From contig RXKB01000003.1 of NCBI GenBank assembly GCA_003963225.1, positions 1 to 32,329 on the forward strand: 32,329 bases of DNA, written 5' to 3'. A model generated the notes under the pieces. The model saw nothing but the letters and a program-made list of their open reading frames with translations. It made no database searches and had not been told where the DNA came from. Positions 24,683-31,484 of the stretch are shown here, piece by piece. Position 1 is the first letter of the stretch. Every line of letters starts with the position of its first letter. A program made the position numbers and the translations under genes. Source of the DNA: Candidatus Babelota bacterium (GTDB lineage Bacteria; Babelota; Babeliae; Babelales; Vermiphilaceae).

Positions 24683-27061
24683 TTAAAATTTTTGCGGGAC
24701 TAAATTTCTTAACATCGGTCTAACGATATCTTCTTGCCACTTGTTATTCAGCGGAAACTTATTATCGGAAGCGTTAGCTATAATGGGAAGCGGCATTTGC
24801 TTTGTAGCAATCTCGGTTAAAATCGCTTCAACCGTAATCCAGTACGACCCGAGCGCATGTTCTTGAGCGTTGTCGAATTCGGTTTCTCGTATCCCGTCGA
24901 GCGCATGATTCGCAATTCGGTTTTTTGAATTGATTATTCCCCAAAGCCCGTCATCTAACGTATTGTCGGCGCAAAGATACCGAATCAAAACCGATTCTTT
25001 TTGTCCGATTCGATGAATTCGATCTTCAGCTTGCAGAGCTACACCAGGAGCAAACGGAAGTTCCGCTATCAGCATGTCACTAGCCGCAGTCAAAGTAAGA
25101 CCGGTCGACGCGGCGGTTATGCTCAAAATACAACATTTAATTTTTCCACTCTGAAAATCATCGACGCACCGTTGTCGAGTTTCGAGCGGAGTATCGCCAG
25201 TAATTGAACCAAACGGATATTTTTCGCCGACCGATTTGCATAGCGCTTGGATCATCGTTTTGTGGTGCGCAAATATTACTAGCGGATTCCCCGACTCAAG
25301 TAATTGAAGCGCTATTTCGCAAGCCGTTTCAGCCTTAAGCGTTGCGAGTTCAGAGTAGGCGGAAAAAACGCATTCGGAAATTTCATTTTTTCTTGACCGT
25401 AACCATTCTAAAGCTGAAGGGACGGAGCCGCATTTCTTTAACGCTTTTTCGCATAAAGTTCTCAGGGCCGTTCCGTGCGGAGATCTCCCTAATCCACCGA
25501 CCGAGATACGAACTCGCCGCTTGTCCGGTAATTCTGTTAAGACATCAGACTTGCGCTTGCGTACCATGACGTTCGCTAAAAGCTTTTGATTTAAGTCGCC
25601 TAAATTACTTGAGCCGGTTACATCCCAGCCGAATTTTCCGCGAAACGCGGCGCAGTATTTTTTTGCGTACGCCCAATAATTCCCCAACGAAAAATTCAGC
25701 GCTTCAAGTTGACACCACAATTCAATCGGCCGATTCAACATCGGCGTTCCGGAAAGTAGCAAGCAGTACCGAGAGAGCCGACACAACGCCACGACTGCTT
25801 TAGTCCTACGGGCGTTTCTGTTTTTGCAGTTATGAACGATCACCCCATTCGCTATATAGTTGTGATATCTATCGAGCTTAAGGTCGAAATAACGCGCATT
25901 GGATTTTGAAGAATCTCCTGATTCGAGAATCGAAATACTTTCCACCCGAGCGATTTCAATTTCAGTTCTTTCTTCGAATCTCGTTGTTTCCCCAGCTTCG
26001 TGTTGTGACTCGCTCCGTCGGCTTCTAGTGCAATTTTCAACGAAGGAATCGCAACATCGATTTTGTAACACGTCGGATAGCCATTCTCTCGACCATTTGT
26101 TGCAACACCAAATTCGAATTGAATCTTTGATCCAGGAAATACAATTCGCGCTAATTTTTTTAATCGAACTTGCGCAACTGGCATCGGCTTCCCATTCCCG
26201 CCTTGCACAATAGGCTTGTGCCCTATCTTTTTTAATGTTGCACTCACTTTCAGTCGCGTAGATTCTTTCCTCATTGGGTTTCGTTTTTTCATCACTTCGA
26301 TCCAACCCCCGTTGTGACAGTGGTTCAATTTTGCGCATCGATTGCTGCAAAACTTCCGACTCGTCCATGATTTGTATTTCGCGTCCCAAGTCTTCCCGCA
26401 CAACGGACACCGCATCGGAAACTTGAAGTTCTCCGATAGATTTCCATCCGCTAGGGGTTCTAACGAGATGCCAGTCGAGCCCATTAATTGTTTTACCGTT
26501 ACTGAGCTTGATAACTCTTTTTGGTTCTTCATTGTCGCCCTCAATTTTTGATATAACGCGACCAAGACTAACCCCATTATCTGAAATTGAAAACACCGAA
26601 TCACCAGGATTTAGATCTTTTATCTTAACTAGTCCGTTAGGTGTCGAAATTTGCGTGTTTTCTTCAAGGCAATAATGCGATTCGTCCACCACCATCATGT
26701 CAGGCTTTAGCGCCGCGAGTTCTAGAACTCGGGTCGTCGCTTGCTCATAAGAAATCACGATAAATGTAGTGCGCTCGATTTTAGTTTTGCCGCTCAGAAC
26801 AACGGTAGTTTTTATTTGATTTAGTTTACAGCTCATCGGGTATAGAGCTTGTGACCACGCGGCGATCTCTCTTTCCCAATTCAACCGGAGCGAGGCCGGG
26901 CACACAACGACGGTGCACTTGCAGTTCAGCCACAGAGCGGAGCCGATCGCGACCGGGGTTTTTCCCAACCCCATGTCGAGCGCAACCAAGGCGCGTCCGT
27001 TGAACTTCGTGCAAACTTGATTTATCGCGTCTTTTTGAAATGGGAAAAGTTCCATCGTCAT
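24683..27061 (-). CDS. SNF2-type helicase precursor interrupted by an intein
   Basis: A 792-residue reading frame. Helicase parts: motif I DMGLGKTPVAIG (29-40), motif II DESHY (126-130), motif III SGTP (437-440), motif V SITAASTGLTLTAAS (647-661) and motif VI QAEDRIHRIGQ (677-687), the SMARCAL1-like/RapA set of ATP-driven translocases. Between Y130 and C412 lies a 281-residue intein, so the mature helicase would have about 511 residues, with DESHY joined to CKNRNARRTKA. A Shine-Dalgarno (TAGGAGG) sits nine bases before the ATG. It probably remodels forks or strips proteins in replication. It stands between the annealing protein and primase genes. Splicing is a prediction, as is the precise cleavage site. 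Confidence 0.8.
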   Translation of the reverse strand: MTMELFPFQKDAINQVCTKFNGRALVALDMGLGKTPVAIGSALWLNCKCTVVVCPASLRLNWEREIAAWSQALYPMSCKLNQIKTTVVLSGKTKIERTTFIVISYEQATTRVLELAALKPDMMVVDESHYCLEENTQISTPNGLVKIKDLNPGDSVFSISDNGVSLGRVISKIEGDNEEPKRVIKLSNGKTINGLDWHLVRTPSGWKSIGELQVSDAVSVVREDLGREIQIMDESEVLQQSMRKIEPLSQRGLDRSDEKTKPNEERIYATESECNIKKDRAQAYCARREWEADASCASSIKKISANCISWIKDSIRIWCCNKWSREWLSDVLQNRCCDSFVENCTRSRRSESQHEAGETTRFEERTEIEIARVESISILESGDSSKSNARYFDLKLDRYHNYIANGVIVHNCKNRNARRTKAVVALCRLSRYCLLLSGTPMLNRPIELWCQLEALNFSLGNYWAYAKKYCAAFRGKFGWDVTGSSNLGDLNQKLLANVMVRKRKSDVLTELPDKRRVRISVGGLGRSPHGTALRTLCEKALKKCGSVPSALEWLRSRKNEISECVFSAYSELATLKAETACEIALQLLESGNPLVIFAHHKTMIQALCKSVGEKYPFGSITGDTPLETRQRCVDDFQSGKIKCCILSITAASTGLTLTAASDMLIAELPFAPGVALQAEDRIHRIGQKESVLIRYLCADNTLDDGLWGIINSKNRIANHALDGIRETEFDNAQEHALGSYWITVEAILTEIATKQMPLPIIANASDNKFPLNNKWQEDIVRPMLRNLVPQKF
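25829..26671 (-). mobile_element. Intein at motif II of the helicase
   Basis: Residues 131-411 of the helicase frame. Block A: CLEENTQISTPNG (the first Cys and the TPNG turn). Block B-like region: NGLDWHLVRTPSGWKSIGEL (194-212), with the conserved His but Leu where most inteins have Thr. Blocks F and G: ARYFDLKLDRYHNYIANG and VIVHN, then extein Cys412. Cys1, HN and Cys+1 are the class 1 chemistry. Removing it restores DESHYCKNRNARRTKA, the normal SNF2 motif II neighbourhood. The middle (about 213-390) shows no LAGLIDADG or HNH motif in this frame; a separate nuclease gene is encoded there in another frame. Confidence 0.85.
25852..26532 (-). CDS. Vsr/EDxHD-like homing endonuclease nested out of frame in the intein
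   Basis: A 226-residue protein read in the +1 frame relative to the helicase. The ATG at 26532 has GAGGG about 6 bases upstream. A treble-clef finger is present: CPLCGKTWDAKYKSWTSRKF...CSNRC (Cys 42, 45, 62, 66). A basic linker follows, then a Vsr-like nuclease core: FEFG (Glu140), KIDVAIP (Asp159), ALEADGASH (Glu170, Asp172, His176), KELKLKSLGWKVFRFSN. These fit the EDxHD homing endonuclease group, known from split-intein loci. Its stop overlaps the intein's blocks F/G. It likely cuts intein-free helicase genes and so drives intein spread; the activity is inferred. Confidence 0.75.
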   Translation of the reverse strand: MKNQKELSSSVTVKQLMGSTGISLEPLADGNLSENFKFPMRCPLCGKTWDAKYKSWTSRKFCSNRCAKLNHCHNGGWIEVMKKRNPMRKESTRLKVSATLKKIGHKPIVQGGNGKPMPVAQVRLKKLARIVFPGSKIQFEFGVATNGRENGYPTCYKIDVAIPSLKIALEADGASHNTKLGKQRDSKKELKLKSLGWKVFRFSNQEILQNPMRVISTLSSIDITTI

Positions 27062-30102: not shown

Positions 30103-30309
30103 ATGAGGAAAAAACAAAACCACGGCGTAGCCGAAGCGGTCGAAAAAACCGGCTCCACTCGCCAGCTCGCCCGGCTTTGTGGAGTGACGCAACCAAGCGT
30201 TATGAAATGGCTCCATACCAATTGCCCGGCGGAGCGGGCGGTCCAGATTGAAAACATCACCGGAGTTCCACGGGAATCGATACGACCGGATTTGTGGGAT
30301 AAAAAATGA
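30103..30309 (+). CDS. YdaS/Cro-like helix-turn-helix regulator
   Basis: A 68-residue protein starting at MRKKQNHGVAEAVEKTGST (ATG 8 bases after TAGGA; an in-frame TTG lies two codons earlier). The HTH is TRQLARLCGVTQPSVMKWL, followed by NCPAERAVQIENITGVPRESIRPDLW. The ending ...ITGVxxxxIRPDLW is typical of the YdaS/Cro group that binds phage operators. It should act on the palindromes to its left. It overlaps the methyltransferase start by 4 bases (ATGA). Confidence 0.75.
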   Translation: MRKKQNHGVAEAVEKTGSTRQLARLCGVTQPSVMKWLHTNCPAERAVQIENITGVPRESIRPDLWDKK

Positions 30310-31484
30310 AGATCATTAATAGAACCCCGGCAGAAATATTCCCGTACAAAAAAAACAACAGGATTCACACACCAGAGCAAATTCAAAAAATTGCGGATTC
30401 AATCGGCTTGTTCGGATTCAATCAACCCGTGGTAGTGGATGAATCTAGTGTGGTTCTGGTAGGTCACGGGCGACTAGAAGCGGCGAAACTTTTGGGCCTA
30501 GAGCTTATTCCGTGCGTCGAGCTTCTCGGTCTCAGCGAAGATCAGAAAAAAGCGTACAGGATTCTAGATAATAAAATCCAGAATGATTCAACATGGGATT
30601 TCGGGAATTTAGAAACTGAACTTGCAGAGTTATCGGCGAGCAACTTTGATTTTGCTCAATTTGGGCTTGGCGATTTAGACGAGCTTATTCAAGATAATTC
30701 AAAGCTCATAAAATCACAGATTGAAGTCGTAGATGACGAAGCGCCAGAACCACCCAAAAAAACACTCATTAAGCTAGGCGATATCATAGAGCTTGGAGCG
30801 CATCGGTTGATGTGCGGGGATAGCGCAGAGGCCGAGCTTTTGGAGGTCGATCTAGTGTTGACCGATCCACCGTATGGAGTCAGCCGCGATAGTGGGTTTG
30901 GTGGGTTTGGTGGGTTTGGTGGGTTTGGTAAACCAATTAAGCGCAGAGAATATGATGATGATTGGGATTCCGTCCGACCAGAAAAAAGCACGCTAGACAA
31001 AATTATAGCTAGCGGAAAATCGGCTATTATTTTCGGCGGCAATTTTTTTGCCGACATACTACCAGCGAGCACGCACTGGATTTTTTGGGATAAACTTCAA
31101 ACAATGCCGACGTTTGGCGACGGCGAGCTAGCCTGGACTAACATCGACAGAAAATCAGTGAAGAAAATCACGCACCAATACAATGGCCTAATCGGCAAAG
31201 AGGCAGAGCGGTTTCATCCTACGCAAAAGCCGGTGGCGTTATTTTGCTTATTACTAAAAGAATACGGCGACGGCGCTAAAACTATCGGCGATCCGTATCT
31301 TGGCAGCGGCACCACATTGATCGCATGTGAACAGATGGGTCGCGCCTGCTACGGACTCGAGCTAGAGCCTAAATACTGCCACGTCATAGTTAAACGCTAC
31401 GCCACAGAACGTCAGCGCACCGGAAAGCCTATAGATATCAAGATTAATGGTGAGCCATTCCCGGTAGAATGGATCGATTATTAG
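30306..31484 (+). CDS. ParB-domain DNA methyltransferase (N4/N6-type)
   Basis: A 392-residue protein. The N-terminal about 95 residues are ParB/sulfiredoxin-like (MKIINRTPAEIFPYKKNNRI, VVVDESSVVLVGHGRLEAAK, LLGLSEDQKKAYRILDNKIQ). The methyltransferase follows: LVLTDPPYGVS (motif IV, DPPY) at about residue 182 and, later, GDPYLGSGTTLIACEQMGR (motif I-like FxGxG site), with HPTQKPVALF between. The order IV then I is the beta-class N6-adenine/N4-cytosine plan. The stretch after DPPYGVS carries four GFG repeats from an exact 9-base DNA repeat. It would methylate phage DNA against host restriction, or mark it. The nuclease-like gene follows 3 bases later. Confidence 0.85.
   Translation: MKIINRTPAEIFPYKKNNRIHTPEQIQKIADSIGLFGFNQPVVVDESSVVLVGHGRLEAAKLLGLELIPCVELLGLSEDQKKAYRILDNKIQNDSTWDFGNLETELAELSASNFDFAQFGLGDLDELIQDNSKLIKSQIEVVDDEAPEPPKKTLIKLGDIIELGAHRLMCGDSAEAELLEVDLVLTDPPYGVSRDSGFGGFGGFGGFGKPIKRREYDDDWDSVRPEKSTLDKIIASGKSAIIFGGNFFADILPASTHWIFWDKLQTMPTFGDGELAWTNIDRKSVKKITHQYNGLIGKEAERFHPTQKPVALFCLLLKEYGDGAKTIGDPYLGSGTTLIACEQMGRACYGLELEPKYCHVIVKRYATERQRTGKPIDIKINGEPFPVEWIDY
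30892..30927 (+). repeat. Four tandem 9-base repeats (GTGGGTTTG)
   Basis: GTGGGTTTG occurs four times without change at 30892-30900, 30901-30909, 30910-30918 and 30919-30927, coding for a Gly/Phe tract in the methyltransferase. The four GGG tracts with 6-base gaps could also form a G-quadruplex. Each gain or loss of a unit keeps the frame. Confidence 0.85.

Follow-up and report, generated by a model that had tools for sequence, protein, structure and literature searches.

Can an intein carry its homing endonuclease as a separate gene, written in another frame of the same DNA? In the usual description, an intein is a single protein that includes its nuclease domain in frame. The question is raised by a 32,329-nt stretch (the window) of contig RXKB01000003.1 from the Candidatus Babelota bacterium assembly GCA_003963225.1, where a phage-type helicase gene contains an intein and, nested out of frame within it, a second gene (Table 1). 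Our analysis makes it very likely that the helicase holds a mobile intein at motif II and that an EDxHD/Vsr-like homing endonuclease is encoded by a separate +1-frame gene overlapping the middle of that intein. Support comes from the anatomy of the locus, a host frame kept open against chance, selection on the nuclease frame and precise empty sites in related phages.

The helicase matches SNF2, Helicase_C and Intein_splicing domains, and its PHROG match is a DNA helicase. Intein_splicing (PF14890) scores 37.7 bits (E 2.3e-9), above its curated cutoff of 35.8; the C-terminal model TIGR01443 is also above its cutoff and the N-terminal model TIGR01445 is below. The insertion point lies three residues past the DE of motif II. 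Residues C1, H68, H280 and N281 (window numbering) are invariant among 55 aligned inteins, and the window intein is followed by the +1 Cys. The top Foldseek match of the modelled intein is the Mtu RecA intein (2imz, E 3.4e-8), and Ssp DnaB and other splicing domains also match. Profile, key residues and fold point to a continuous Hint-type intein in a phage helicase, predicted to splice. A preliminary description of the locus had called the intein frame unstructured over the overlap. This holds for the middle of the intein (residues 101–230, where mean predicted local distance difference test (pLDDT) values of 41–53 mark low confidence) and not for the two ends, because the predicted model is folded at both.

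The same description had the helicase/intein frame and the +1 frame both open over about 680 bases, as they are. The nested ATG (26532) sits 529 nt downstream of the helicase ATG, hence the +1 frame; the earliest start codon of the nested open reading frame (ORF) is a GTG at 26604. Translation from the ATG would begin at intein residue 47. The His of block B (residue 68) comes later, so that block B DNA is overlapped by the gene, whose stop falls within the DNA of intein residues 273–274 of 281, inside blocks F/G, in agreement with the overlaps first described. The nested protein matches DUF559 (E 2.3e-11). Its four Cys (residues 42, 45, 62 and 66) are each at least 90% conserved among 72 sequences, bearing out the proposed zinc finger; a YacG-like Zn-finger match is weak (18.4 bits, under its cutoff). 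In the same alignment D159, H176 and D185 are invariant, and E170 and D172 are at least 90% conserved. Structural matches of the predicted model, from Foldseek and structure comparison, include I-Bth0305I and Vsr. Of the Vsr-like core with ordered E, D, ExD and H residues that had been proposed, the fold is matched and D159, E170-x-D172 and H176 are present, possibly as the active site; the upstream Glu proved variable. The product likely combines a four-Cys finger with a DUF559/Vsr-fold core similar to that of I-Bth0305I, an EDxHD homing endonuclease, and is predicted to be a nuclease.

Relatives were gathered by scans with the nuclease alone or with a nuclease alignment, independently of nesting, which gave 108 loci in addition to the window (from the viral scan, 80 of 279 relatives were taken in). 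The nuclease is nested in the +1 frame of a host gene at 103 of the 109 loci (93 distinct), and the nested frame of these relatives is not full of stops. At four loci (L007, L009, L014 and L103) it is free-standing, just upstream of an intein-free helicase with which its gene end overlaps, and two (L068 and L070) are fractured genes with a split intein. An in-frame fusion of nuclease to host was found at none of the 109. The window had been thought to hold an intermediate or a new arrangement; the layout is confirmed, is not peculiar to the window, and belongs to a nuclease family that also occurs free-standing and in fractured genes. Five isolate phages were examined out of 43 records from one scan (CP-T1, 159E43-1b, 104E43.1, MR14 and 1.194.O): the nuclease is nested in all five and annotated in none. 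In L051 the nuclease ORF continues well past the intein end, and in L010 slightly past it. Among the matches listed (120 of 229 proteins), three of the 109 loci match at 90% or more, which says little for a list covering part of the proteins.

Twenty further genome loci (L110–L129; 19 with a match, L128 with none) share only the DUF559 core match and were left out of the 109; no other same-strand frame of 400 residues is open across the DUF559 match in them. Two of 86 genomes scanned gave a match, the window's own and G040. The match in G040 is a helicase-like protein that carries a C-terminal REase_MTES_1575/DUF559 nuclease and has no intein match. Two loci have further features. L001 (2416–6837) has one helicase ORF with two intein-like regions, one with an in-frame Hom_end/LAGLIDADG nuclease and one with an out-of-frame nuclease, and in L006 (3058–6333) the helicase with the nested intein has a fused N6/N4 DNA methylase domain.

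Synonymous shuffling of the window's nested gene puts a mean of 8.4 stops in the host frame. The double-open frame is not due to chance, because none of 300 shuffles stays open. Across the 90 distinct nested copies with a complete intein (L012, L077 and L109, truncated at contig ends, were left out), 730.3 host-frame stops are expected by shuffling and none is observed; the mean chance of an open host frame is 0.0024 per gene, for genes that are related and not independent. The third frame of these genes has 1360 stops against 1260.8 expected. The frame corresponding to the host frame has 17 to 30 stops in the four free-standing copies and 25 and 13 in the two fractured ones. Stops arise in the host frame only where a T-ending nuclease codon precedes AAN, AGN or GAN. 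In nested genes, 0 of 3581 codons at such positions end in T (partly by definition), versus 3217 of 10154 elsewhere. Free-standing genes show no avoidance (95/207 versus 190/414) and fractured genes little (38/106 versus 86/191). Every +1-frame stop can be removed synonymously, whatever the protein; in the +2 frame a stop is unavoidable wherever Met precedes Lys, Asn, Thr, Ile or Met, as happens at least once in 83 of the 90 genes. This difference may be why only the +1 frame occurs.

Splice junctions are recognizable in all 90 copies. The junction is DE|C of the Walker B motif in 86; the others are DExHY|C (the window and L021), DEAQ|C (L022) and DELSF|C (L049). Helicase_C was found in 75 of the 86 C-exteins scanned and clamp-loader (DnaX-like) domains in three (L105, L106 and L108); the C-extein of L041 matches a terminase family, and that of L069 does so weakly. 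From these junctions and domains, the element appears to occupy the Walker B motif of several P-loop ATPases, mostly superfamily 2 (SF2) helicases.

Empty alleles fix the insertion point. Compared with vB_VchM-138, phage CP-T1 has a 1059 bp insertion exactly after GATGAR, with 100-base flank windows 90–98% identical; the empty allele reads DE-A-HH (GCT) and the filled one DE|C-HH (TGC). Phages 159E43-1b (whose annotated start is 60 nt later) and 104E43.1 have a 900 bp insertion relative to 142E35-1, with GCG replaced by TGC and lower identity in the flank windows (~67–94%). Because the empty alleles of the Vibrio phages have DEA and the filled ones DE|C, the element appears to bring along the Cys codon that splicing requires; after splicing, the helicase would read DECH in place of DEAH. 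A search of limited extent turned up no empty allele for the element of the window itself. In most of 18 locus pairs similarity is greater between the nucleases than between the host proteins (window and L021: nuclease 56%, exteins 30–32%), which is a hint of transfer only, the pairs having been chosen by nuclease similarity; L098/L099 and L048/L057 go the opposite way.

Several observations weigh against a separate, functional nuclease gene that moves with its intein. An open host frame was our criterion for calling a copy nested, so the absence of stops follows partly from classification; the evidence independent of it is the 103 of 109 loci and the shuffles, for loci that are related. No invariant counterpart of the first Glu of EDxHD was found in the 72-sequence alignment, where E170 and D172 are not strictly invariant either. 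The Foldseek match to I-Bth0305I reaches only E 3.3e-3, with no PDB match at E 0.001, and its profile match to the nested nuclease (E 0.0035) is distant in sequence. The nuclease match extends 3–13% past its ORF in 10 of the 90 copies (L044, L045, L049, L055, L063, L067, L073, L075, L089 and L099). With the scoring used here, 33 of the 90 have no Shine-Dalgarno-like site at any start codon. One predicted protein, P0103 (464 residues), crosses from the intein frame to that of the nuclease; its ResIII, HINT and DUF559 parts are read as one frame and it lacks a C-intein. Distance correlations over 87 loci do not discriminate co-inheritance: nuclease with splicing domain.60, nuclease with extein.56 and splicing domain with extein.62.

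P0103 would fit +1 ribosomal frameshifting from the helicase frame, which would yield an intein-N/nuclease fusion and not a separate protein, and nuclease-frame ORFs often reach upstream of the conserved region. We consider this unlikely. P0103 is a single sequence on a 2386-base contig and may reflect an indel, and the free-standing and fractured copies must have their own start. In 82 of the 90 nested copies an in-frame ATG precedes the GGNG motif by at least 25 codons; the other eight lack the motif as defined and were left unscored. A candidate ATG has a Shine-Dalgarno-like match of at least four bases in 47 of the 90 genes (57 counting GTG and TTG). Such sites occur at 53 of 177 candidate ATGs and at ~10% of 996 control ATGs, an enrichment of about threefold.

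Variation by codon position shows which frame is constrained. We compared 18 disjoint locus pairs, chosen by nuclease similarity (L051/L079 was left out). By host codon position, variation ranks 3>1>2 in the exteins and intein ends; the overlap shows 1>2>3, equivalent to 3>1>2 when counted in the nuclease frame. Nuclease positions 1, 2 and 3 vary at.252,.215 and.435, an ordinary coding pattern. That pattern, and core residues invariant over 72 sequences, make it very unlikely that the intein alone matters and carries the nested gene as a passenger that is inert or has decayed, although nuclease activity is only predicted and the matches running past the ORF in 10 copies would suit decay.

Slightly less probable again is a functional domain encoded by the overlap in the intein frame, with an accidental nuclease frame. 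The strictly open host frame would agree with this, as would the last ~31–33 codons of the nuclease, from the GW motif to the stop. In this 3' zone identity is.739 for the nuclease and.681 in the host frame, nuclease positions 1, 2 and 3 vary at.145,.171 and.248, and nuclease GWxVLRFxN and intein RVxSVEIxE share the same bases (consensus of 89 copies). In the middle zone, however, identity is.432 in the host frame against.676 in the nuclease frame, nuclease positions vary at.263,.210 and.477, and host third positions vary least; the intein frame there has the low pLDDT given above, and the Pfam and fold matches are in the nuclease frame. Selection thus seems to follow the nuclease frame inside the overlap, with the 3' zone constrained in both. 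The preliminary view of the intein frame as overprinted filler fits the middle zone but not the 3' end. The host-frame words LLQ and ILLxRM were considered as an intein motif and rejected: by codon logic, read off the alignment, they are a shadow of nuclease YPTCYKID and YCSKEC. Sequencing or assembly frameshifts splitting an ordinary in-frame intein nuclease can practically be dismissed, for although most loci come from metagenomes, the frame is the same in 103 of 103, including the five isolates, and no host stops are seen where 730 are expected.

For a separate +1-frame endonuclease gene, the mechanism would probably run as follows. Translation of the helicase frame would continue without a break and produce a precursor in which a long disordered linker connects the N- and C-terminal splicing parts. 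The linker would take the place of the in-frame nuclease domain of other inteins, and the intein would splice itself out. The endonuclease would be translated separately from the internal ATG with its own Shine-Dalgarno-like site. It would cut intein-free alleles at Walker B DNA, and repair would copy the whole element with the +1 Cys codon, resulting in homing. We think it probable that such loci represent two-gene inteins, a class widespread in phage P-loop ATPases, in which splicing element and nuclease share DNA in two frames and production of the nuclease does not depend on splicing. A free-standing or fractured-gene nuclease could have been the origin of the class, the other frame being opened by synonymous changes.

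The window contig is one of 82 in a 2.43 Mb genome. We read the window as tailed phage DNA from its gene content: head-tail adaptor, tail terminator, major tail, distal tail, tail fibre, primase, Erf-like and RecE-like genes. It also encodes a DNA methyltransferase with a fused ParB-like domain (30306–31484).

Table 1. Features of the helicase locus in the window and of the two fractured relatives (fractured loci in their own coordinates)
Feature	Location	Strand	Details	Basis
SF2/SNF2-type phage helicase gene with continuous intein	24683..27061	-	792 aa	ORF and domain profiles
Intein (splicing predicted)	25829..26671	-	281 aa; helicase residues 131-411 (C131 to N411)	Junctions DESHY|C ... VHN|CKN
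N-terminal splicing part	26396..26671	-	~intein residues 1-92	pLDDT means 82-97 over residues 1-90
C-terminal splicing part	25829..25978	-	~intein residues 232-281; penultimate His, Asn, +1 Cys	pLDDT means 70-96
Nested homing endonuclease gene (predicted)	25852..26532	-	+1 frame, 226 aa, ATG start, TAG stop	ORF, DUF559, fold matches
GAGGG, Shine-Dalgarno-like	26538..26542	-	5 nt ahead of nested ATG	Sequence, Shine-Dalgarno scoring
Codons of four-Cys zinc finger	26335..26409	-	nested residues 42-66	Profile and alignment
Nuclease core	25978..26058	-	D159 to D185 (D, ExD, H, D)	Alignment, profile, structure comparison
3' zone, GW motif to stop	25855..25947	-	31 codons; conserved in both frames across family	Zone-wise identity
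Fractured helicase, L068	194-2452		split intein; nuclease ORF overlaps intein-N ORF end and intein-C ORF start	
Fractured helicase, L070	3292-5259		split intein; nuclease ORF overlaps intein-N ORF end and intein-C ORF start	

If two-gene inteins exist as proposed, gene callers would miss out-of-frame nucleases, as in the isolate phage records, and their inteins could be mistaken for nuclease-free ones with unusual linkers. One family would then connect inteins with fractured genes and free-standing nucleases, which would open the origin of nuclease-bearing inteins to testing. The loci would also be a natural example of gene overlap in which one zone is conserved in both frames, and of selfish DNA whose arrival coincides with a Walker B change from DEA to DEC.

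Full-length inteins of the PI-SceI type carry the homing endonuclease in frame. The nested copies resemble them in having nuclease sequence between blocks B and F of the splicing domain; they differ in that the PI-SceI-type nuclease is cut out with the intein, an in-frame layout seen at none of the 109 loci. Fractured genes, reportedly described by Dassa and colleagues in 2009, are said to have split inteins whose halves flank an ORF for an EDxHD (Vsr-like) nuclease. They share with the window phage-type genes and, reportedly, the kind of nuclease, and L068 and L070 of the present family are themselves fractured helicases. Unlike them, the window has a continuous host gene and intein, with the nuclease in an overlapping frame.

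Among intron systems, I-Bth0305I is the EDxHD endonuclease of a group I intron (PMC3943268), whereas the nested nuclease lies in an intein and matches it only distantly in sequence. Group I introns with an endonuclease ORF overlapping the intron core are also described (PMC3984707). There too the nuclease ORF overlaps essential sequence of the splicing element, but the other function is RNA and here it is a second protein frame. A genome announcement mentions an out-of-frame HNH nuclease in a methylase (PMC12613952). Among the papers listed by the literature searches, none deals with a nuclease out of frame inside an intein, and an earlier description is possible, for example in a 2025 bioRxiv preprint on non-canonical actinobacteriophage inteins.

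The ShiLan insertion is a nuclease gene out of frame in an open host gene, with a homing-like distribution; both traits recur here. Its nuclease is HNH, and its authors, who detected neither a ribosome binding site nor a splicing domain of intein or intron type, propose that the insertion stays in the host protein. The window element, unlike ShiLan, has a splicing domain (the PF14890 and 2imz fold matches) and a predicted nuclease of EDxHD type. Fractured genes and ShiLan are the nearest relatives of the nested arrangement.
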